DNA of 64,000 bases from Pseudomonas putida. Its GTDB lineage: Bacteria > Pseudomonadota > Gammaproteobacteria > Pseudomonadales > Pseudomonadaceae. The stretch spans positions 5,208,001-5,272,000 of the forward strand of contig NZ_CP026115.2 of NCBI RefSeq assembly GCF_009883635.2. The letters run 5' to 3'. Shown here one piece after another: positions 40,910 to 52,814 of this stretch (position 1 is its first letter; every line of letters starts with the position of its first letter). The notes below the pieces were generated by a model. That model saw only the letters and a list, made by a program, of their open reading frames with translations, made no database searches and was not told where the DNA came from. Both the position numbers and the translations under genes were made by a program.

Positions 40910-42202
40910 TCAGGAGGCGCTTACCGCTTGCGGTCTTTGCCGACGGTAGAGCACGGTGGTCGCGGTGAACCCACATACCGCCGCGAACATCAGCCAGTAG
41001 GCCGGCGAGGCTTTGTCACCGGTGGCCTGCACCAGCAGCGTCGACACCGCCGGCGTGAAGCCGCCGAACAGCGCGGTGGCCAGGCTGAAGGCCAGCGAGA
41101 AGCCGACCACCCGCACGTTCGCCGGCATCACCTCGGTCAGCGCTGCGACCATGGCGCCGTTGTACAGGCCGAAGAACATCGAGAAGTACAGCAACACCAC
41201 GAGCAGGCGCTCGAAGCTGGCAGCTTCAGCGAGCCAGTGCATGGCCGGGTAGGCGGTCAGCACGCACAGCAGGGAAATCGCCAACAGCTGCGGGCGCCGG
41301 CCGATGCGGTCGGAGAGGGCACCGCCGATGGGCAGCCAGATGAAGTTGCTGACGCCCACCAGCAGGGTCACCACCAGGCTGTCGGTGGTGCTCAGGTGCA
41401 GCACGGTCTTGCCGAAGGTCGGGGTGTACACCGTGATCAGGTAGAACGTGGTGGTGGTCATCGCCGCCAGCAGCCCACCAGCCAGCACTGTGCGCCAGTT
41501 GTCGCACATCGAGCGGAACACCTCGGCAGCGCCTGGGTGATGTGCGCGGGCCTTGAAGGCTTCGGTCTCCTGCAGCGAGCGGCGAATGATGAAGATGAAC
41601 GGGATGATCACGCAACCGATGAAGAACGGAATGCGCCAGCCCCAGGCCGCCACCTCGCTGGTGGCCATGCACGCGTTGAGGGTATAGCCCAGCGCCGCCG
41701 CCACGACGATCGCCACTTGCTGGCTCGCCGACTGCCAACTGGTGTAGAAGCCGGTGCGCCCTGGCGTGGCGATCTCCGAGAGGTACACGGAAACGCCACC
41801 CAGCTCGGCGCCGGCTGAAAAGCCTTGCAGCAGCCGACCCAGCAACACCAGCAGCGGGGCGAGGATGCCGATGCTGGCGTAGCCGGGCACCAGGGCAATC
41901 AGCACGGTGCCGGCGGCCATGATCGACAGCGTCACGATCAGCCCTTTGCGCCGCCCGACCTTGTCGATGTAGGCGCCCAGCACGATGGCGCCCAGTGGGC
42001 GCATCAGGAAGCCCGAGCCGAACACCGCGAAGGTCATCATCAGCGAGGCGAACTCGCTGCTGGCCGGGAAGAACGTCTGGGAGATGTAGGTGGCATAGAA
42101 ACCGAAAAGAAAGAAGTCGAACTGTTCGAGGAAGTTGCCGCTGGTGACCCGCAGGATGGCGCCGAGGGTGGCGCCCCGAGTCGGTGTTGTCGTTTTCATC
42201 AT
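40910..42202 (-). CDS. tcuC: Tricarballylate/citrate proton symporter TcuC
   Basis: A 430-residue MFS permease of the citrate-proton symporter group. It has twelve hydrophobic segments, the N-terminus [19 protein letters not shown] and the motif A loop [13 protein letters not shown]. With tcuA and tcuB upstream on the same strand it imports tricarballylate or citrate. It starts 38 bases after the tcuB stop. No terminator is visible before the Rhs gene. Confidence 0.9.
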
Positions 42203-42240
42203 GGCTCGCTTTTGTTGTTATTGGCTGAAGGGCGCCGCGC

Positions 42241-43398
42241 TCAATCGCTGCCGGCATTGATCGGGTTGGGCTGGCGTTTCTCGATGGCGTGCTTGAGCAA
42301 CGCGGCGCTGCGGAAAATGCCGTGGGCAAACTTGCTGTAGGGCATGGTCAGGAAGAACGCCATCACCAGCCCCAGGTGCAGGGCCAGCAGCAGGCCAAGG
42401 GCGCTGGTCTCGCGCAGCGCCAGCAGGGCCAGGCCGCTGGCGCTGACCAGCAACAGCAGGGCGATGAAACCGCGGTCCATGGGTTTCTGTTCGGCGTCGC
42501 CGTGGTTGGGGTTGCGTCGCAGGTTGAGGTACAGCAGCCCGGCAGGGCCGACCAGCAGGCCGAGACCACCGGCAATACCGAGCAAGACCGGCAGGCTCAG
42601 CACCGGGTACGGCGCCGCCAGACCCAGCAGGTAGTGGTAGAGCGTTGCGCTGGCGGTGGCGGCCAGGCACAGCAGGAAACCGTAGAACGTCAGGTGGTGG
42701 AAGCGCCGCCGCCACAGGGTGAAACGGTCATCGGCATTGTTGCAGCCTTGGCCGTGGCCGCCGTCCAGGTACTTGAGCTTGGCCACGCTGGCGGTCGCTT
42801 CAAGTGCTGCGGCGGTTTTCAGTGCAGTGGGTGCCTTCGGCGGTGAAACGTCACGCCAGAATCGGCGCACGCCCAGGGTCAGGGCAATGACCGCGAAGCC
42901 GAACACCGCGCCGAACATCAGCGCCAGGGTGTTGTGCGGGAAGATGCCGTAGAAGTTGCCGCCGGGCATGGCCGTGAACAGGTTGCCCATGGCCAGCAGC
43001 GTCAGGCACAGGAACAGCACCAGGCCGAATCCGCTGGCCAGCGCCAGTGTCAGGCCGTTGCGCTGGTACAGGCGGCCCAGGGTGCGCGGCCAGGCGTATT
43101 CGGCGTAGGTGTCGAGGCGCACCTTGGCCATGGCCTTGGGCACGTTGACCTGGAATTCGTGGGGCGCGGCGTACTGGCAGGCGTGCAGGCAGGCGCCACA
43201 GTTGTGGCACAGGTTGGCCAGGTAGTGGATATCGGCCTGGCCGAACTCCAGGCGCCGGGTCATGGCCGGGAACACCGCGCAGAAACCTTCGCAGTAGCGG
43301 CAGGCATTGCAGATGCTCATCTGCCGCTGCACTTCGCTTTCGTGCACGTTCAGCGCCGGGACCAGTTGGCTCTGTGATTGCGGGTCAAATAGCTGCAT
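42241..43398 (-). CDS. tcuB: Tricarballylate utilisation electron-transfer protein TcuB
   Basis: A 385-residue membrane iron-sulfur protein. Two cysteine clusters lie in the N-terminal third ([15 protein letters not shown] and [16 protein letters not shown]), each suited to a 4Fe-4S centre. About six hydrophobic helices with conserved His follow. In Salmonella TcuB reoxidises the FAD of TcuA and passes electrons to the quinone pool. The start overlaps the tcuA stop by 14 bases, so the pair is translationally coupled. Confidence 0.93.
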
Positions 43399-44830
43399 GG
43401 CGTGCCTCCCGGTTGTCGACGAAGCCTGCGCTGGCGGCCGCCTGCACGCCGGCGATGCGGCCGAACGCCGTGCCGATGGCCATGCCGATGCCGGCGGTAT
43501 AGCCCTTGCCCAGTACGTTACCGGCCATCATTTCTCCTGCGACGAAAAGGTTGGGGCTGGGTTTGCCGGCGAAATGCACGGCGGCGCTGTCATCGGTGGC
43601 CAGGCCCAGGTAGGTGAAGGTGACGCCTGGCTTGAGCGGGTAGGCGTAGAACGGTGGCTTGACCAGCGGGCGGGCCCAGTGGGTCTTGGCCGGGGTCAGG
43701 CCTGCGGTGTGGCAGTCGTCGAGTGCGGTGTGGTCGAAGGTGCCGGCCTGGCAGGCGTTGTTGAACGCCTCGATGGTCTGGTGGAACTGCGCTTGTGGCA
43801 GGCCCAGCTTGCGCGCCAGTTCGGTCAGGGAGTTCGCCGTGGTGCCCGGGAACACTGGTGGCATGAAGCGGCCGATGGCCTGCTGGTCGATGATCGAATA
43901 GGCTTTTTGGCCCGGCTGGCCGGCCACCAGGCGGCCCCAGATGGCATAACGCTTGGGCCAGAAGTCTTCGCCTTCGTCATAGAAACGCTCGCCGTCACGG
44001 TTGACCACCACGCCCAGCGACACACAGTCGATGCGGGTGCAGATGCCGCCGTCATACAGCGGCGCGCGGGCGTCGATGGCGACCATGTGCGCCTGGGTCG
44101 GGTCGCCGATGATGTCGGCGCCGAGTTCGCCCATGCGCTTGAGCAGGATGCCGGTGTTGAAGCGCGTGCCGCGGATCAGGAAGTTGTCCGACGGCCATTC
44201 GCCACGGGCATTCTGGCCCCAGGCTTCACGCAACCACTCACGGTTGGACTCAAAGCCGCCCGCCGCCAGCACGCAGGCCCTGGCCTGGATGCGCTCGGCA
44301 GGCCGCTGGCGGCCCTCGACCTCGCGGGCGGGCAAGTGAGCGGCGACGAACCTGCCGCCCTGCAGTTCGATATCGTTGACCTGGGCGTTGTAGCGCACCT
44401 GCACGCCGAGCCGTTCGGCGCTGCGGAAGTAGGCGTTCACCAACGCCTTGCCACCGCCCATGAAAAACGCGTTGGTCCGCGCCACGTGCAGGGCGCCGGA
44501 CAGCGGCGGCTGAAAATGCACACCATGGCTGCGCATCCAGTCGCGGCAGCTGGAGGACGCACGGATGGCTATGCGCGCCAGTTTTTCGTTGGTCAGGCCG
44601 CCGGTGACCTTCAGCAGGTCCTGCCAGTACTCCTCTTCGGGGTAGGCGTCGACCAGCACATCCTGAGGCGCGTCGTGCATGCAGCGCAGGTTGCGGGTGT
44701 GCTGCGAATTACCGCCACGCCAGGCCTTGGGCGCGGCTTCCAGCAGCATGACGCTGGCGCCGGCCTCGCGGGCCATCAGTGCGGCGCAGAGGGCGGCGTT
44801 GCCACCGCCGATTACAAGAACATCGATCAT
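43385..44830 (-). CDS. tcuA: FAD-dependent tricarballylate dehydrogenase TcuA
   Basis: A 481-residue flavoprotein of the fumarate reductase/succinate dehydrogenase flavoprotein family. The dinucleotide-binding motif [14 protein letters not shown] is at residues 4-17, and a second conserved FAD segment, [19 protein letters not shown], lies near the C-terminus. It oxidises tricarballylate to cis-aconitate. ATG 44830 has AGGAG five bases upstream and gives the FAD motif at the N-terminus. It leads the tcuABC unit and is 115 bases downstream of the tcuR stop. Confidence 0.93.
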
Positions 44831-44945
44831 TGTCGCTCCTCGGTCGCAAGGCGGCATGAACGAAAGGCCCCTTGCGAGTGAGGAGAAAGTAGGCCTGTCG
44901 GCCGGGCGCCGAAAGGCGGGCTATGGCATGGGGTGTTCAGTTTTT

Positions 44946-45878
44946 CTAAAGGCTTGCGTCTTCGATCCAGGTCGCGCCCGGCCATTGCCGCTGGCTGACG
45001 AGTTGGCGGGCGACGTCGGTGATCACGCGCCTGGCGGCCAGCGCGGCGGGTGACAGCTCATCGTCCGCCAGGGTTGCCAGCAGGTTGCGCCGGCCGACGT
45101 GGGGGTCGCTGATCTGCGCGACCCGCAGCCCGCTTTCACCACTGAGCGCCGCAGCGGCGCCCGGTTGGATGGTTGCGGCATGGCCGGCACGCACGGCGTT
45201 CATCAGCACGGCCAGGCCATCGACTTCCATGATGATGTTCGGCACCAGGCCGGAGCGTTCGAACGCAGCCATCAGGGTCGAGCGCAGACCATGCTGGGCG
45301 CTGGGCATGACCAGCGGCAGCGGGCCCAGGTCGGCCAGGTGCATACTGCCTTGGGGCGCGTGGGGTAGTTGTGGGGGGCTGATGACGAACAGCCGTTCAT
45401 CGAGCAGCGGCGTCACGCTCCAGCGTTTGCCACCTTCGAGCTGGAACAGGATGGCGAGGTCGATTTGCCGGGCGTTGAGCTGCGCGGCGAGGTGCCCGGA
45501 GAGCATTTCCACCACGTGCAGCTGGATGTCGGGGTAGCGCTCGCGCATGGCATTGATCAGCGGCAGGGCGAGCACGGTCGCGGTGGTGGGCGGCAGGCCG
45601 ACGGTGACGTAGCCGCTCATGCGCCCACGGTGGGCGGCCAGGATGGCGTTGTCGGCCTGGCGCAGGCTGAGCTGGGCATGGTGCAGGAAGGCCGTGCCAG
45701 CGCTGGTTGGTGTGACCCCTGTGCTGCTGCGGTTGAGCAGGCGGGTACACAGCTCGCTTTCGAGCTTGGCGATCTGCTGGCTCAGCGCGGAGACGCCGAC
45801 CTCCAGTTCGAGCGCGGCGCGGCCAAGGCTGCCGTGTTCGATGATCTTGACGAAGTAGCGCAGTTGTCTGAGTTCCAA
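44946..45878 (-). CDS. tcuR: LysR-type regulator TcuR
   Basis: A 310-residue LTTR. The winged HTH reads ELRQLRYFVKIIEHGSLGRA from residue 2. A TTG start at 45878 is chosen because AGGAG stands five bases before it and it gives the canonical LysR N-terminus; no suitable ATG exists. In Salmonella TcuR activates tcuABC when tricarballylate is present. Here it is transcribed in the same direction as tcuABC, upstream of it. A weak or non-ATG start fits a low-level regulator. Confidence 0.88.
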   Translation of the reverse strand: MELRQLRYFVKIIEHGSLGRAALELEVGVSALSQQIAKLESELCTRLLNRSSTGVTPTSAGTAFLHHAQLSLRQADNAILAAHRGRMSGYVTVGLPPTTATVLALPLINAMRERYPDIQLHVVEMLSGHLAAQLNARQIDLAILFQLEGGKRWSVTPLLDERLFVISPPQLPHAPQGSMHLADLGPLPLVMPSAQHGLRSTLMAAFERSGLVPNIIMEVDGLAVLMNAVRAGHAATIQPGAAAALSGESGLRVAQISDPHVGRRNLLATLADDELSPAALAARRVITDVARQLVSQRQWPGATWIEDASL

Positions 45879-45965
45879 GTGTGCTCCTGACGAGGACGAT
45901 GGGCAGTCGGTCAGTTTACATCGCTGTCGGGTGCATGGCTGCGCTGGCGAGGCAATCTCAACCAC

Positions 45966-47012
45966 TCACGCGCTTTCCCGCGCGATCAACTCGCATTGCA
46001 GCAGGTTCAAGCGCTGCACCTCGCCCTCAAGCCCCACGCTGCCCAGATGCTGCAACACCCGCAACGCCGCCAGTTCGCCAATTTCTCGCGAAGGCGGGCG
46101 CAATGTGGTCAGGCTCGGCAACAGCATCTCGGCGAACGGATAGTCACCAAAGCCCATGATCGCCAGGTCGTGTGGCAAGCGCAGCCCGGCGCGCTGGCCG
46201 GCGAGGAGGGCACCGGCGGCCAGGTTATCGTTGGCGAAGATGATCGCCTGTGGCCGAGGCGTGCGGCGGATCAGCGCCTCCATGGCCTGGCGGCCGGCCT
46301 CGAACGGCGCGCAGTCGGCCGACGGCACGAAAACCCAAGGTTCAAGCCCGGCTTCACGCAGCGTCTGGATGTAGCCGTCGCGCCGCTCCAGCGCACTCAA
46401 GTCGCCAGCGGCGCTGTTCTGCACGAACGCAATCCGCCGGTGGCCCTTCTCCAACAGGTAGCGACAGGCCTGCACGCCTACCTGATGGTGCAGGAAACCC
46501 ACCTGCAGTGGCGCCCGCTCAGGGCAGTAATCCCAGATCTCGACCACCGGCACATCGGCCTCGGCCAGCATTTTTTCGGTAGCCGGGCTGTGGAAATGGC
46601 TGGTTACCACCAGCGCCGCTGGCGACCAGCCGAGAAAGGCGCGCACCGCGCTTTCCTCCTGCGCTTCGCTGAAGTAGCTGGAGGCCAGCAGCAACTGGTA
46701 GCCATGCCGGCTCAAGGTGTCGCTGAAGGCTTGAATGGTCTGGGCGAAGATCGGCCCGGAAATGTTCGGGATGACCATGCCGACGATACGCCCACGGGCC
46801 GAGGCCAGCCCGCCGGCCACCAGGTTGGGCACGTAACCCAGCGCCTGAACCGCCGCTTCGATGCGCGCGCGCAGGGGCGGGGAGACCTGTTCGGGCTGAT
46901 TGAAGAAGCGCGATACGCTGATGGCCGAAACCTCGGCGGCCCGCGCCACGTCGGCGAGGGTGACGCGACCTGCGCCGCGCCGCTTGCGGGACGGTTCCTT
47001 GGCTTGGCTCAC
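45966..47012 (-). CDS. LacI family transcriptional regulator
   Basis: A 348-residue LacI/GalR regulator. The N-terminal HTH and hinge are VTLADVARAAEVSAISVSRF (residues 17-36) and LGYVPNLVAGGLAS, and a periplasmic-binding-like effector domain follows (about 75-340). It is close to the GntR (gluconate) subgroup in its HTH. The start is GTG 47012 with GAGG seven bases upstream. It is divergent from the TonB-dependent receptor operon, and two LacI-type palindromes lie in the shared region. It is thus the probable repressor of both itself and the receptor/monooxygenase operon, in response to a sugar-like ligand. Confidence 0.9.
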   Translation of the reverse strand: MSQAKEPSRKRRGAGRVTLADVARAAEVSAISVSRFFNQPEQVSPPLRARIEAAVQALGYVPNLVAGGLASARGRIVGMVIPNISGPIFAQTIQAFSDTLSRHGYQLLLASSYFSEAQEESAVRAFLGWSPAALVVTSHFHSPATEKMLAEADVPVVEIWDYCPERAPLQVGFLHHQVGVQACRYLLEKGHRRIAFVQNSAAGDLSALERRDGYIQTLREAGLEPWVFVPSADCAPFEAGRQAMEALIRRTPRPQAIIFANDNLAAGALLAGQRAGLRLPHDLAIMGFGDYPFAEMLLPSLTTLRPPSREIGELAALRVLQHLGSVGLEGEVQRLNLLQCELIARESA

Positions 47013-47040
47013 AGTTTGGCCTCATGGGGAAATGAGGCGA

Positions 47041-47054
47041 TGTTAGCGCTAACG
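47041..47054. promoter_or_regulatory. LacI-family operator O1
   Basis: TGTTAGCGCTAACG contains the perfect palindrome GTTAGCGCTAAC. It lies 29 bases upstream of the LacI-regulator start codon, suited to autorepression. Confidence 0.8.
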
Positions 47055-47142
47055 AGGCCATGACTTGCAAATAGCTTTATTGCATATAAAACTGACTTTT
47101 TATTATTTGACCTGCTAAGTAACAGGCTTTGATACTTGATCA

Positions 47143-47156
47143 TGTTAGCGCTAACA
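47143..47156. promoter_or_regulatory. LacI-family operator O2
   Basis: TGTTAGCGCTAACA is a perfect 14-base palindrome with the central CG step typical of LacI/GalR operators. Its centre is 102 bases from that of O1. It lies 117 bases upstream of the TonB receptor start. Two matching sites invite repression by DNA looping. Confidence 0.85.
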
Positions 47157-47273
47157 AGCGCTGCTGTTGGCAAGCGCCTGCCACTCGCACGAGCGAGACC
47201 AGACAACCACAGCAACACCTCGTCGGCCCCATGAGTGTGGGCCATGGTCTGGTCATCGAAGGCAGTGAGCATC

Positions 47274-49478
47274 ATGTACAAAGAGCGCAACGCATTCCCG
47301 TTCAAGCATCGCCAACCGCTGGCTGCTGCCGTGCTCCTGGCCGCTATCGGCCAACCCGCGCAGGCGGCCGATAATGCCCCGCAAGCCACGGCGCTCGACG
47401 CAGTGACGGTGACTGCCACTCGCCGCGAATCGACCCTGCAGGAAGTGCCAGTGGCGGTTTCGGTGCTCGATGGCGAACAGCTCGAGCGCGACAACCGCAC
47501 TAATGTCGCCAGCATCGTGCAGCAGGTGCCGACCCTCAACTACCGCGCCGGTGCCTCGAACAAGGACACCTCGCTGTTCATTCGCGGTGTGGGCACCATT
47601 TCCACCTCGCCCGGTGTCGAACCGACTGTGGCGACGGTGGTCGACGGCGTGGTGTTCGGTCGCCCCGGCCAGTCCACCCTCGACCTGCTCGACCTGGCGC
47701 GCATCGAAGTGCTGCGTGGGCCGCAGGGCACACTGTTCGGCAAGAACGCTTCTGCCGGCGTACTCAACGTCGTCAGCAAACCAGCCCCCGAGCAGCCCGA
47801 AGGCTACGTGGATTACTCGCACTTTGGTGGCGGCAACGAAAATCGCTTGCGCTTCGGCATTGGCGGCCGCCTGAGCGAGCAGCTCAAGGGCTCGTTGAGC
47901 ACCCTGTGGGGCGACTATGACGGTAACGTCGAAAACGTCGCCAATGGCCATGATGTCAACGGCTACGAACGCAAGGGCGCCCGCGGCAAGCTGGAGTTCG
48001 AGGCCAGTGATGACCTGCGCCTGACCCTGATTGCCGACTACATGGATGGCGAGGACACGCTGCCTAGCGGTGTCATCACCCGCGCCAGCACGGCCATCGC
48101 CAGCCAATTGCGCCCGGTCGAGCCCAGCACCCACAACCGTGACATCAACAGTGACTTCAAGACTCGCGTCGACGACCGCAACCAGGGCCTGTCGGCGCAG
48201 CTCGACTGGCAACTGGGCGATTACACCCTGACCTCGATCAGCGCCTGGCGCGGCTGGGACAATACCCAGTACCAGGACGGCGACCGCCGCGCCTTGCTAC
48301 CGATCACCGCCTCCCACGACAAAGGCACGGTGGACTACGACCAGTACAGCCAGGAGTTCCGCCTGACTTCGCCCAAGGGCCAGTTCAACGAATACGTACT
48401 GGGCGCCTTCTACATGCACGGTACCTCCAACGAGACGTACCAGCGGCTTTCGGTCAACAGCGGCGTGGCGAACACGGGCAGGGCGGATTATTCGACGAGC
48501 AACGACAGCGTCGCGCTGTTTGGTGAGAACACCTTCAATTTCACTGAAGATTTCCGTGCGATTTTCGGCCTGCGCTGGACCCACGATGACCTTGAGTACG
48601 ACCACCGCCGCGTGTCGACGTCGCCCATTGCCGTCACGGGCATCCAGCCATCGACGGCCAGTTCCGGTTCGGTGGATGAGGACGGCTGGAGCGGCCGTAC
48701 CGGCCTGCAGTACGACTTCAATGACAATCTCACCGGCTACCTGACTTATTCGCGCGGTTACAAGGGCCCGGCCTACAACGTGTTCTTCAACATGCAGCCG
48801 CGCGATACCGAGGCGCTCAAACCGGAAACCTCCGATGCCTACGAGGTGGGCCTCAAAGGCACGGCACTGGATAACCGCCTGATGGCCAACCTGGCGGTGT
48901 TCCACACCGACTACGACAACTACCAGGCCAACTTCTACGACACCGTGGCCAACCAGGTGGTGACCCGCCTGGTCAACGCCGGCAAGGTCAAGACCCAGGG
49001 CGTCGAGCTCGATGCCAGTTTCCAGGCCACTCGCCAGCTCAAGTTCTCGGCGGCAGCGGCCTATACCAAGGCACGGGTCGATCACTTCAACTGCCCGGCA
49101 GGTGCTACGGCCAACTGCGACATCGACGGTGGCCGCCTGCCGTTCACGCCGGACTGGAAAGCCTACGTGCGCGCCGATTACCTGATCCCGCTGGACAACG
49201 GGCTGGATGTGGAGCTGTCCAGTGACTACAGCTGGCAGGATTCGGTGCAGTTCAGCCTCGACCAGAACCCCGACACCGTGCAGGGCGCCTATGGCATCTG
49301 GAACGCCGGCATCGCCCTGGCCGACTACAACGCCGGTTGGCGCGTGGCGTTGCTGGGCAAGAACCTAGGCGACAAGTCGTACGCACAGATGCTGGCCAGC
49401 GGCGGCGACTACATCTACCGGGCGGTGCCGCGCGACGACGGGCGCTACTTCGGCGTTCAACTGCGCAAGGACTTCTGA
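47274..49478 (+). CDS. TonB-dependent outer-membrane receptor
   Basis: A 734-residue receptor. The signal peptide ends near QPAQAADNAP. The TonB-box/plug starts with LDAVTVTATRRESTLQEVPV, the plug domain runs to about residue 165, and a 22-strand barrel ends with aromatic FGVQLRKDF. There is no N-terminal signalling extension, so it is a pure transporter. Its barrel type (LNYRAGASNKDTSLFIRGVG) is of the non-siderophore group often used for organic substrates (inference). It leads an operon with a flavin monooxygenase, aldo/keto reductase and SsuA-like protein, behind LacI operators. Confidence 0.9.
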   Translation: MYKERNAFPFKHRQPLAAAVLLAAIGQPAQAADNAPQATALDAVTVTATRRESTLQEVPVAVSVLDGEQLERDNRTNVASIVQQVPTLNYRAGASNKDTSLFIRGVGTISTSPGVEPTVATVVDGVVFGRPGQSTLDLLDLARIEVLRGPQGTLFGKNASAGVLNVVSKPAPEQPEGYVDYSHFGGGNENRLRFGIGGRLSEQLKGSLSTLWGDYDGNVENVANGHDVNGYERKGARGKLEFEASDDLRLTLIADYMDGEDTLPSGVITRASTAIASQLRPVEPSTHNRDINSDFKTRVDDRNQGLSAQLDWQLGDYTLTSISAWRGWDNTQYQDGDRRALLPITASHDKGTVDYDQYSQEFRLTSPKGQFNEYVLGAFYMHGTSNETYQRLSVNSGVANTGRADYSTSNDSVALFGENTFNFTEDFRAIFGLRWTHDDLEYDHRRVSTSPIAVTGIQPSTASSGSVDEDGWSGRTGLQYDFNDNLTGYLTYSRGYKGPAYNVFFNMQPRDTEALKPETSDAYEVGLKGTALDNRLMANLAVFHTDYDNYQANFYDTVANQVVTRLVNAGKVKTQGVELDASFQATRQLKFSAAAAYTKARVDHFNCPAGATANCDIDGGRLPFTPDWKAYVRADYLIPLDNGLDVELSSDYSWQDSVQFSLDQNPDTVQGAYGIWNAGIALADYNAGWRVALLGKNLGDKSYAQMLASGGDYIYRAVPRDDGRYFGVQLRKDF

Positions 49479-49506
49479 CCGTGGCTGCATTTCAAGGAGA
49501 CAGAGC

Positions 49507-50841
49507 ATGAACCGTCAAATGAGCCTGGGCGCTTTCCTCATGGCCACCGGGCACCACATTGCCGCCTGGCGCCACCCAGAGGTGCCCGCCGACCCGCTGG
49601 ACTTCGACACCTATCGGCGCACCGCGCAGATCGCCGAGGCCGCCTGCTTCGATGCCCTGTTCGTCGCCGACAGCGTTGCCGCCCCCAGTGACGCATTGGC
49701 CAGCCGCAGTGCCCGCTCGGTGTATTTTGAACCGCTGACCCTGCTCTCGGCCCTGAGCGCGGTCACCGAGCGCATTGGCCTGATCGCCACCGCCACCACC
49801 AGTTACAACGAGCCGTACCACGTGGCACGCAAGTACGCTTCGCTCGACCACCTTTCCGGCGGCCGTGCCGGCTGGAACCTGGTGACGTCGGACGCTGCCG
49901 CCGAAGCCGGCAACTTCGGCCGCGATGCTCATATCCCCCATGCCCAGCGCTATGCCCGTGCCCGCGAGTTCCAGCACGTGGTGCAGGGCTTGTGGGACAG
50001 CTGGGCCGACGATGCTTTCGTGCGTGACAAGGCGAGTGGCCAGTTTCATCGCCCGGAGGCGGTTCGGGCTGTGGACCACGAGGGCGAACACTTTCGCGTG
50101 CGCGGCCCCCTGAACGTGGCCCGCTCGCCACAGGGACGACCTGTACTGGTACAGGCCGGGTCTTCGGAAACCGGCCGTGAACTGGCCGCCGAAAGCGCGG
50201 AGGTGGTGTTTACCGCCCAGCCCAGCCTGGCCCGCGGCCAGGCCTTCTACGCCGACCTCAAGGGGCGCCTGGCGCGTTACGGGCGAAGCGAAGACACGCT
50301 GAAGATCATGCCCGGTGTGTTCGTCGTGGTCGGGCGCAGCGAACAAGAGGCCCAGGCCAGGTACCAAGAGTTCCAGGACCTGGTCGACCCGCGGGTGGGT
50401 GTCGCCTTGCTCGGGCGCATGCTCGGCAATTTCGACCTGTCCGGCTACCCGCTGGATGGCCCGTTGCCTGAGTTGCCGCCGACCGAGGATGGCCAGCGCA
50501 GCCGTCAGCAGCTGCTCATTGAACTGGCCGGCCAGGAGCAGCTGACCCTCGCCGAGTTAGGCCGCCGTATTGCCGGCGGGCGAGGGCACTACAGCCTGAT
50601 CGGCACGCCGACGCAGATCGCCGATGAACTTCAAGCCTGGTTCGAAGGTCGCGCGGCCGACGGCTTCAACGTGCTGGTGCCGCACCTGCCACTGGGGCTC
50701 GAGGACTTCGCTACGCAAGTGGTCCCCGAACTGCAGCGCCGTGGCCTGTTCCGCCAGTGCTACCAGGGCCGCACCCTGCGTGAGCACCTGGGCCTGCAGC
50801 GGCCCGCCAACCCCTACTTTGCCGACCGAGGTCAACCATGA
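49507..50841 (+). CDS. NtaA/DszA/DmoA-type FMN-dependent monooxygenase
   Basis: A 444-residue flavin-dependent monooxygenase of the bacterial luciferase superfamily. The N-terminus (MSLGAFLMATGHHIAAWRHP), the FDALFVADS strand and GGRAGWNLVTSDAAAEAGNFG mark the NtaA/SnaA/DszA/DmoA group. Members attack chelators such as nitrilotriacetate, or cleave C-S bonds in sulfones and dimethyl sulfide. They need reduced FMN from a separate reductase, and no reductase gene is seen here. AAGGAG stands eight bases before the ATG. The last four bases overlap the next gene (ATGA). With the SsuA-like protein nearby, an organosulfur substrate is most likely. Confidence 0.88.
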   Translation: MNRQMSLGAFLMATGHHIAAWRHPEVPADPLDFDTYRRTAQIAEAACFDALFVADSVAAPSDALASRSARSVYFEPLTLLSALSAVTERIGLIATATTSYNEPYHVARKYASLDHLSGGRAGWNLVTSDAAAEAGNFGRDAHIPHAQRYARAREFQHVVQGLWDSWADDAFVRDKASGQFHRPEAVRAVDHEGEHFRVRGPLNVARSPQGRPVLVQAGSSETGRELAAESAEVVFTAQPSLARGQAFYADLKGRLARYGRSEDTLKIMPGVFVVVGRSEQEAQARYQEFQDLVDPRVGVALLGRMLGNFDLSGYPLDGPLPELPPTEDGQRSRQQLLIELAGQEQLTLAELGRRIAGGRGHYSLIGTPTQIADELQAWFEGRAADGFNVLVPHLPLGLEDFATQVVPELQRRGLFRQCYQGRTLREHLGLQRPANPYFADRGQP

Positions 50842-51881
50842 GCTACATCGCCAACCCCGAGCGCTATACCAGCATCCCCTATCGCCGCGTCGGCCGCAGT
50901 GGCCTGGTATTGCCGGCCTTGTCCCTGGGGCTGTGGCACAACTTCGGTGATGCCACGCCCATCGATACCCGGCGTGCGCTGCTGCGCACGGCCTTCGACG
51001 CCGGCATCACCCACTTCGACCTGGCCAACAACTACGGCCCACCCTATGGCAGTGCCGAAAGCAACTTCGGCCGCCTGCTGCGCGAGGACCTGCGCAGCTA
51101 CCGCGACGAGTTGATCATCTCCAGCAAGGCGGGCTGGGACATGTGGCCGGGGCCTTACGGGCAGGGTGGCAGCTCGCGCAAGTACCTGCACGCCAGTCTC
51201 GACCAGAGCCTGCAGCGCCTGGGGCTGGACTATGTCGATATCTTCTATTCGCACCGTTTCGATGCCGACACACCGCTGCAGGAAACCGCCATCGCCCTGG
51301 CCGACATCGTGCGCCAAGGCAAGGCGCTGTACATTGGCATCTCCTCCTATTCCGCTGGCAAGACCCGCGAAATTGCCGCGCTGCTGGCCGAGCTGAAAGT
51401 GCCGCTGCTGATCCACCAACCCTCGTACAACCTGTTCAACCGCTGGATCGAGCAGGACCTGCTCGCCACCACGGAGGCCGTCGGTGCGGGTGTGATCGTG
51501 TTCACCGCCCTGGCTCAGGGGCTGCTCAGCGGCAAGTACCTGAACGGTATCCCGGCCGATGCCCGAGTCAATCGCGTCGGCGGTGGCTCGCTGCTGCCGC
51601 AGCACCTGTCCGAGGCCAACATCGCCCGTGCCCGTGCGCTCGACGGGATTGCCCGGCGTCGTGGCCAGAGCCTGGCGCAACTGGCATTGGCCTGGACCCT
51701 GCGCGACCCGCGTGTGAGTTCGGCCCTCATCGGTGCCAGCCGCCCCGAGCAGATCACTGAAAACGTCGCGGCACTGAACAACCTGGCATTCAGCCCCGAA
51801 GAACTGGCCGAGATTGACCAGTACGCCGTGGAAGGCGGGATCAACCTCTGGGAAAAACCCTCGACCGACTGGAAGGAGTGA
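50838..51881 (+). CDS. Aldo/keto reductase (YghZ/Gpr-like)
   Basis: A 347-residue aldo/keto reductase of the YghZ (glyceraldehyde 3-phosphate reductase) type. Tetrad residues lie in ITHFDLANNYGPPYG (Asp, Tyr), IISSKAGWDMWPGPYG (Lys) and DIFYSHRFD (His). It should reduce an aldehyde using NADPH. A monooxygenase that removes sulfonate or cleaves a C-S bond releases an aldehyde, so this enzyme may act on that product, as the reductase does in the sulfoquinovose monooxygenase route (inference). Its start overlaps the monooxygenase stop, and the binding-protein gene starts 3 bases after its stop. Confidence 0.9.
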   Translation: MSYIANPERYTSIPYRRVGRSGLVLPALSLGLWHNFGDATPIDTRRALLRTAFDAGITHFDLANNYGPPYGSAESNFGRLLREDLRSYRDELIISSKAGWDMWPGPYGQGGSSRKYLHASLDQSLQRLGLDYVDIFYSHRFDADTPLQETAIALADIVRQGKALYIGISSYSAGKTREIAALLAELKVPLLIHQPSYNLFNRWIEQDLLATTEAVGAGVIVFTALAQGLLSGKYLNGIPADARVNRVGGGSLLPQHLSEANIARARALDGIARRRGQSLAQLALAWTLRDPRVSSALIGASRPEQITENVAALNNLAFSPEELAEIDQYAVEGGINLWEKPSTDWKE

Positions 51882-51884
51882 CCG

Positions 51885-52814
51885 ATGCGCATGCTACATC
51901 TTGTGATGCTCCTGCTGCTGGGGCTGACCGGTGCGGTGCAGGCGGCGGACCCCAGCACCTTGCGCATCGGGTACCAGAAAGGCTCGATCAGCCTGGTGCT
52001 GGCCAAACAGCACCAACTGCTGGAGCAGCGGTTCGCCAACACCCGGGTGCAATGGATCGAGTTCCCCGCCGGCCCGCAGATGCTCGAGGCCCTGAATATC
52101 GGCAGCCTCGACATCGGCTCGACGGGGGATATCCCGCCGATCTTCGCCCAGGCCGCCGGTGCCGACCTGCTGTACATCGGCGCTGAGCCGGCGAAGCCGA
52201 AGGCCGAGGTGATCCTGGTGCCCGCAAGCAGCCCGATCGAATCGGTCGCGGGGCTCAAGGGCAAGCGCATTGCCTTGCAGAAGGGCTCCAGCGCACACAA
52301 TCTGCTGCTGCGCAGCCTGGCCAAGGCCGGGCTGGGCATGGCGGACGTGCAGCCGGTGTACCTGGCGCCGGCTGATGCACGAGCTGCATTCGAGCGCGGT
52401 AGCGTGGATGCGTGGGTGATCTGGGACCCGTTCTATTCGGCCATCGACCTGGAGGGCAAGGCGCGTCTGCTGGCCAATGGCGAGGGGCTTGGCCTGATCG
52501 GGCCATTTATGCTGGGTGCGCGCGGGTATGTCGAGGCCAACGGCGATTTCGTCAAACGGCTGCTGGCGGAGATCAGCCGGGCCGAAGCACTGACGCGCAG
52601 CGACGAGGCGGGCAGCATCCGCTTGCTGGCGCAGTTCATGGGGTTGCCTGAAGAGGTGGTGCGGCGCAGCTTCAGTCACCGCCCGGCGTCGCCGCTGATT
52701 CCGGTGAGTGACGAGATCGTGGCCGAGCAACAGCGCACGGCGCAGCTGTTCTTCGACAACCGGCTGTTGCCCAAGCGGGTCGACATAGCTGGCGCGGTCT
52801 GGGGGCGACATTAA
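51885..52814 (+). CDS. SsuA-like periplasmic substrate-binding protein
   Basis: A 309-residue periplasmic binding protein with a signal peptide (LVMLLLLGLTGAVQAA). The SsuA/TauA/NMT1 fold is clear: LRIGYQKGSISLVLAK, LNIGSLDIGSTGDIPPIFAQ and DAWVIWDPFYSAID. Family members bind aliphatic sulfonates, taurine, nitrate or related anions for ABC uptake. No ABC permease or ATPase gene is adjacent, so it either borrows another transporter or acts in the periplasm. Last gene of the LacI-controlled operon. Confidence 0.9.
   Translation: MRMLHLVMLLLLGLTGAVQAADPSTLRIGYQKGSISLVLAKQHQLLEQRFANTRVQWIEFPAGPQMLEALNIGSLDIGSTGDIPPIFAQAAGADLLYIGAEPAKPKAEVILVPASSPIESVAGLKGKRIALQKGSSAHNLLLRSLAKAGLGMADVQPVYLAPADARAAFERGSVDAWVIWDPFYSAIDLEGKARLLANGEGLGLIGPFMLGARGYVEANGDFVKRLLAEISRAEALTRSDEAGSIRLLAQFMGLPEEVVRRSFSHRPASPLIPVSDEIVAEQQRTAQLFFDNRLLPKRVDIAGAVWGRH

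Follow-up and report, generated by a model that had tools for sequence, protein, structure and literature searches.

What does a gene set that places sulfur-handling proteins beside a sugar-type repressor do in Pseudomonas putida? Such a set lies in the window analyzed here, the 64,000-nucleotide stretch 5208001-5272000 of a single-contig 6.19 Mb genome of this species. It comprises genes for a LacI-family regulator, a TonB-dependent outer-membrane receptor, a flavin mononucleotide (FMN)-dependent monooxygenase, an aldo/keto reductase (AKR) and a periplasmic substrate-binding protein (SBP), referred to below as the module (Table 1). Use of a sulfonate by this operon is well supported. We further consider it fairly probable that the module, repressed by LacI, serves to scavenge a sulfonated sugar or a close sugar-like sulfonate, with sulfoquinovose (SQ) or its glycerol glycoside as the best candidate; the sugar nature of the sulfonate, along with the substrate, the reaction, the ATP-binding cassette (ABC) transporter partner and the LacI ligand, is what we infer from the evidence below.

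A preliminary description of this DNA had named five genes and their families; the positions of the open reading frames (ORFs) bear out the former, and Pfam and NCBIfam searches the latter. The SBP scored 491 bits against the SsuA-family model (cut-off 299), the monooxygenase 579 bits against TIGR03860, about twice the cut-off of 279.7, and the AKR 522 bits against the YghZ subfamily model NF007388 (cut-off 448). The best NCBIfam model for the LacI protein was Pseudomonas GntR at 278 bits, under the cut-off of 400, and the NCBIfam profile search reached no equivalog for the receptor, whose ORF was listed from a GTG at 47235, the ATG at 47274 being the likelier start. Spacing from receptor through monooxygenase and AKR to SBP is operon-like (28 nt gap, 4 nt overlap, 3 nt gap), and the lacI gene is divergent from this receptor operon. 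The operon has neither an SsuC permease nor an SsuB ATPase; past position 52814 lie a GNAT gene on the opposite strand and a LysE-family gene.

The closest relatives of the window SBP were, about equally, Xanthomonas citri SsuA (3e4r, 393 bits) and Escherichia coli SsuA (2x26, 391 bits). X. citri SsuA is stabilized by MOPS, MES, CHES and HEPES and not by taurine or sulfate, and knocking out ssuA abolishes growth when HEPES, MOPS or MES is the only source of sulfur (PMC3839906). The ligand residues of that protein are Gln36, Gly68, Gly86, Ser141 and Trp185 (PMC3839906). All five have counterparts in the window SBP (Q31, G63, G81, S136 and W180), and they are kept in 42-43 of the 43 SBP orthologues, one row being unaligned at three positions. 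The earlier suggestion that the module takes up and desulfurizes an organosulfur compound is thus supported both by these residues and by the sulfur-source phenotype of the orthologous X. citri protein.

Gene order points the same way. The X. citri ssu2 operon consists of Xac3200, described as a nitriloacetate monooxygenase (SsuD2), Xac3199, an oxidoreductase (SsuE2), Xac3198 (SsuA2), SsuC2 and SsuB2 (PMC3839906, PMC4501297), and its authors noted that SsuD2 and SsuE2 are unlike the E. coli proteins (PMC4501297). A TIGR03860 monooxygenase, an AKR and an SsuA-type SBP are adjacent in the same order in the window and in Xanthomonas loci L041, L045 and L048, with a receptor upstream of the set in L041 and L048. 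The module SBP of X. arboricola is nearly identical to the X. citri chain (613 bits) and is followed by SsuC, above its cut-off, and by an ATPase whose best match was SsuB at 364 bits, under the cut-off of 395. Monooxygenase, AKR and SsuA of X. arboricola and X. dyei are 75, 80 and 60% identical to those of the window.

Conservation was counted at 53 monooxygenase-orthologue loci (L005-L057, the first of at least 80 loci), with identity thresholds of 50% for receptor and LacI, 60% for AKR and 55% for SsuA-type SBP; neighboring genes at these relatives' loci came from a crude gene caller, so that some are missed or mis-started. Around the 53 monooxygenases we found the receptor at 52 loci, LacI at 49, and AKR and SsuA-type SBP at 43 each; one locus, L015, is cut by a contig end. 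Because these partners recur, the five-gene grouping is not chance. At E <= 1e-180, 96 of 298 Pseudomonas genomes, about a third, carry the monooxygenase orthologue. At the 26 remoter monooxygenase loci (L058, L060-L084), 15 had a binding-protein match at 25-35% identity. The AKR residues D61, Y66, K97 and H139, which we take to be the catalytic tetrad of these enzymes, are present in 43/43 orthologues. In a tree of 44 monooxygenases, with the characterized TIGR03860 enzymes outside it, the module enzymes formed one supported clade (96/99) of 19 rows, spanning Pseudomonas, Xanthomonas, Solimonas, Undibacterium and three of the five genomes with a SmoF-type transporter described below, and including one long, unsure row.

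The LacI protein has a DNA-binding domain, a sugar-binding domain and a palindrome at its own divergent promoter. Two operator-like palindromes lie within the gap between lacI and the receptor gene and are the only sites in the genome at no more than one mismatch. Since a reversed control pattern matches as often as the real one in this genome (2 vs 2 at <=1 mismatch), the count here is uninformative, and the operator argument is based instead on site location and on the survey of the 298 Pseudomonas genomes. In that survey, the exact 15-mer ATGTTAGCGCTAACA was present in 75 genomes at 75 places, every one of them 2290-2876 bases upstream of a monooxygenase orthologue, and in 0/202 genomes without that orthologue; the reversed control gave 0 in the rows inspected. 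Within L005-L059, LacI and receptor occur together at 50 loci, and at 49 of these a site with <=2 mismatches lies in the stretch that separates LacI from the divergent gene (two sites in 11); the lone exception, L059, has only a 4-mismatch palindrome. The promoter-like site listed in Table 1 is the sole match in 7.1 kb, but shuffled sequences average 1.0, making it weak alone. With its operators confined to the module locus, LacI looks like a local repressor of the operon.

Table 1. Features of the module and its control region (positions within the window).
Feature	Position	Strand	Remarks
LacI-family repressor, putative operon regulator	45966..47012	-	Pfam LacI + Peripla_BP_3
Operator-like palindrome TGTTAGCGCTAACG	47041..47054	none	near lacI start; putative
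Sigma-70-like promoter of receptor operon, TTGACC-N18-GATACT	47107..47136	+	ends 6 nt before second palindrome
Operator-like palindrome TGTTAGCGCTAACA	47143..47156	none	just 3' of promoter-like site; putative
TonB-dependent outer-membrane receptor	47274..49478	+	Pfam plug + beta-barrel
FMN-dependent monooxygenase, NtaA/DmoA family TIGR03860, proposed C-S-cleaving	49507..50841	+	reaction inferred
AKR, YghZ (AKR14) type, proposed aldehyde reductase	50838..51881	+	PF00248; NF007388
SsuA-type periplasmic sulfonate-binding protein	51885..52814	+	SsuA family

Evidence for a sugar came from a variant of the module in another family. A LacI survey of 398 genomes of the phylum (E <= 1e-85) gave eight genomes with a match, one of them, G649, outside the family; its protein is 68% identical to the window LacI. 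At this locus (L113), lacI and an AKR gene share one strand. The other carries a CUT1-type sugar ABC system, made up of a UgpC/MalK-type ATPase (464 bits, cut-off 432), one SBP_bac_1 protein and a pair of permeases, then the receptor and monooxygenase genes, behind which comes a gene of the alkaline phosphatase family. The best solved relative of the L113 binding protein (L113:9528-10796) was SmoF, the sulfoquinovosyl-glycerol-binding protein, at 408 bits and 179/385 identical residues, with a trehalose/maltose-binding protein next at 200 bits. It keeps SmoF residues Ser43, Gln46, Asp67, Asp113, Gly166, Thr220, Trp276 and Arg345, which, with His13, we take to be the contact residues.

Searching 187 genomes of the G649 family at E <= 1e-130, we found seven that passed, five of them with a close monooxygenase orthologue (89-100%). 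Each of the five combines LacI and AKR with the SmoF-like transporter, the receptor and the monooxygenase, and has TGTTACCGGTAACA near lacI, although the genes of G740 are in pieces. The two remaining homologues, at 57% identity, are those of G805 and of G813, the latter (L129) examined and set aside as lacking the module. When the LacI proteins of the window and L113 are compared, the effector domain (191/273 identical) has diverged less than the DNA-binding domain (34/56); this suggests that the two proteins share a ligand or signal, though SBP type and operator center differ. The presence of a SmoF-type transporter beside an orthologous LacI-receptor-monooxygenase-AKR set in five genomes thus lends weight to the sugar link that had been proposed for the window module.

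On the sulfosugar reading, the TonB receptor would bring the compound across the outer membrane, after which the SsuA-type protein would capture it in the periplasm and pass it to an ABC transporter encoded elsewhere. The obvious candidate is the genome's own SsuCB, as a separate locus encodes SsuA, SsuD, SsuC and SsuB; a frame beside that locus tried as SsuE was rejected as a peroxiredoxin. In the cytosol, the monooxygenase would cut the C-S bond to yield sulfite and an aldehyde (6-dehydroglucose if the substrate is SQ), using FMNH2 supplied by a reductase encoded elsewhere (FMN_red has seven matches in the genome), and the AKR would reduce the aldehyde to an alcohol (glucose). LacI is predicted to repress the receptor promoter via the palindromes until released by a sugar-like ligand. 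The best reading of this chemistry is an oxygenolytic desulfonation analogous to the SQ monooxygenase route and carried out by a non-orthologous enzyme. In that route, SquD, a close SsuD homologue, turns SQ into 6-dehydroglucose, from which an aldo/keto reductase gives glucose, and some published SQ clusters have no flavin reductase of their own (PMC9594981). The window monooxygenase scored only 55 bits against the SsuD model TIGR03565 (cut-off 518), in agreement with the earlier view of a monooxygenase-plus-AKR logic served by an enzyme of another branch. It is possible, and we propose it tentatively, that the module represents a further sulfosugar pathway, which pairs a DszA/NtaA-type SQ or SQ-glycoside monooxygenase with a reductase of the YghZ type and has a TonB receptor of its own as well as a LacI sensor.

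Several observations weigh against a sulfosugar substrate. The window SBP is SsuA-type rather than SmoF-type, and in the available text of PMC3839906 the ligands of X. citri SsuA are ring-amine sulfonates, with no sulfosugars among them. GH31 (PF01055), the family of sulfoquinovosidases, had 0 matches in the window genome, in a search whose control matched 6/14 named genomes including E. coli, and none in the five SmoF-type genomes. In a sample of 25 of the 95 module-bearing Pseudomonas besides the window genome, only four had GH31 (L132, also L130, L131 and L133), and at the three of these loci whose flanks were read there was no module LacI, receptor, monooxygenase, AKR or SBP nearby. Likeness to SmoF was scored for L113, to which the binding proteins of L125-L128 were then matched (72-97%), and L113 has Gln in place of SmoF His13. 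AKR and SsuA-type SBP are each absent from 10/53 loci, and LacI from 3/3 Xanthomonas copies. The solved relatives of the monooxygenase, YtnJ/MoxC (360 bits), DszA (321 bits) and others, match it at similar strength, so that sequence alone cannot name the substrate, and the literature consulted holds no enzyme of the module clade with a demonstrated reaction. GH31 was rejected as an accessory enzyme of the module, being present in 4/25 carriers and unlinked in the three read. The GH31 protein of L132:1162-3381 has a DFGE motif and passes NF007746/PRK10426, presumably the YihQ model, at 767 bits (cut-off 553).

A real rival is a general ssu2-like operon for bulky non-sugar alkanesulfonates, such as ring amines of the MES and MOPS kind or their natural counterparts, in which LacI would sense a carbon signal and not the substrate. 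The ligand range of X. citri SsuA and the need for it on three of those compounds argue for such an operon, as do the matching gene order in Xanthomonas (monooxygenase, reductase, SBP, permease, ATPase) and the equal closeness of the window SBP to E. coli and X. citri SsuA. We nevertheless hold it unlikely, though far from negligible, for it does not explain why a SmoF-like transporter accompanies the orthologous set in 5/5 genomes or why LacI is paired with the module at 49/53 loci. The standing of YtnJ/MoxC and DszA among the best solved relatives of the monooxygenase would also fit an oxidative pathway for a different organosulfur compound (thioether, sulfone or S-conjugate); retention of the sulfonate ligand residues in the SBP and the sulfonate- or sulfosugar-type transporters of the orthologues make this improbable.

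A metal chelator imported by the TonB receptor is a further option: the enzyme would then cleave the C-N bond of an aminopolycarboxylate, as nitrilotriacetate or EDTA monooxygenase does. The family name of TIGR03860 invites this explanation, a fec-type iron transporter cluster stands beside some copies (for example L024), and the X. citri receptor XAC3201, considered below, is filed under iron in a proteome table (PMC5504864). EDTA monooxygenase itself (240 bits) is a weaker match than YtnJ or DszA, and because the sulfonate-type SBP, the transporters of the orthologues, SmoF-like variant included, and the sulfur-source phenotype of the X. citri knockout all point to sulfonates, we regard a chelator or iron module as very improbable. 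Glucosinolates and thiosugars had also been named as possible sources; we found no pointer to either, and no test was aimed at them specifically.

The X. citri receptor gives a further sign of a role in sulfur supply. Expression of the TonB transporter XAC3201 rose on cellobiose relative to glucose, and sulfur uptake and assimilation were likewise switched on by cellobiose; as explanations, the authors offered uptake of cello-oligosaccharides or signaling cross-talk (PMC10714752). Judging by its number, next to Xac3200, and by the X. arboricola and X. dyei loci, XAC3201 is presumably the module receptor, and a sulfonate receptor role would fit signaling cross-talk. Both XAC3201 and XAC0852, filed under cello-oligosaccharides (PMC10714752), are numbered next to sulfonate genes, those of ssu2 and ssu1 respectively, and both may be sulfonate receptors.

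Other sulfur genes occur near some copies. In Solimonas (L056), whose copy also speaks for the sulfosugar reading, one 2-mismatch operator precedes genes for a TauD-family dioxygenase, an SsuA-family SBP, a receptor, the monooxygenase, an AKR, an ATPase and a fused permease of the sulfonate type; for TauD, SBP, permease and ATPase these families are the best matches, yet the scores fall short of the NCBIfam cut-offs. Genes of the tau family lie near 11/53 module copies. The idea that tauABCD replaces the SBP was rejected: such genes are near 7/10 loci lacking the SBP and 4/43 loci with it, a difference whose Fisher p of 2e-4 ignores the relatedness of the loci.

Further genes were seen in or beside individual copies. 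An alpha/beta hydrolase gene stands between monooxygenase and AKR in four (L014:9326-10633, L050:9323-10663, L051:9324-10664 and L052:9324-10652); its product is PETase-like, with a GYSMG motif and, by eye, a signal-peptide-like start, and might attack the substrate as a lipase or esterase. A TonB-ExbB-ExbD-like gene set adjoins the module in L011, L012, L037 and L050 and is perhaps a dedicated energizer for the receptor. In the Azotobacter vinelandii CA copy, part of a transposase (DDE_3, L016:6942-7583) separates receptor and monooxygenase. In the window itself, tcuC, tcuB and tcuA (tricarballylate utilization) and a LysR-family gene directly adjoin the module at 40910-45965 and are regarded as a separate locus.

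If the sulfosugar reading is true, the module is a sulfur-scavenging system present in roughly one third of the sampled Pseudomonas (96/298), in Xanthomonas and in other Proteobacteria. Pseudomonads would then commonly draw sulfur from plant sulfolipid, in most cases with no GH31 sulfoquinovosidase, and many of them would have an unrecognized route to sulfur from the sugar of that compound; the exported-looking alpha/beta hydrolase would become a candidate sulfolipid lipase. The analysis further suggests functions that can be tested for three kinds of protein: monooxygenases that now carry a nitrilotriacetate annotation, an X. citri TonB receptor so far listed under iron or cello-oligosaccharides, and a LacI regulator whose operators we found at a single locus. 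Through the SmoF-like variant, the question of substrate can be tested directly.

The part of the module running from monooxygenase through AKR to SsuA, with SsuCB, is already known from X. citri. The preliminary description, which knew of no account of this gene set, was partly wrong in this respect because the ssu2 operon has been published. TonB goes unmentioned in the available main texts of PMC3839906 and PMC4501297, as do LacI in that of PMC4501297 and the word "regulator" in that of PMC3839906; the available text on earlier LacI regulon work (PMC4052901) has no mention of "sulf". In the open-licence literature searched, we found no description of the five-gene set, its LacI control, the membership of the receptor, its spread in Pseudomonas or the SmoF-like variant.

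Compared with known systems, the window operon is nearest to X. citri ssu2, which has orthologous monooxygenase, AKR and SsuA genes in the same order, as judged via the X. arboricola and X. dyei loci and not the X. citri genome. Relative to ssu2, the window operon adds LacI with its operators and is without SsuC and SsuB. Xac3199 has been called SsuE2, but because its orthologues here are aldo/keto reductases and not members of a flavin reductase family, it is probably an aldehyde reductase rather than a flavin two-component partner. With the E. coli-type ssuEADCB operon, the window operon shares the SsuA-type binding protein; it is without an SsuD-type enzyme, SsuE, SsuC and SsuB, and LacI stands in place of the CysB/Cbl control of E. 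coli (PMC4501297).

With the sulfo-SMO/ASMO systems (SmoC/SquD, SmoB/SquF, SmoEFGH), the module has in common the logic of a flavin monooxygenase plus an aldo/keto reductase and, in another family, a SmoF-like transporter beside its orthologues. It differs in having a TIGR03860 monooxygenase that is not an SsuD homologue, an SsuA-type SBP, a TonB receptor and LacI, in a genome without GH31. We therefore rejected membership in the sulfo-SMO pathway proper, outside which the enzyme falls by its family, but it may work like that pathway. Finally, the window enzyme belongs to the same curated family, TIGR03860, as the NtaA, DmoA and DszA flavin monooxygenases, from which the module enzymes differ as a clade of their own with a fixed neighborhood.

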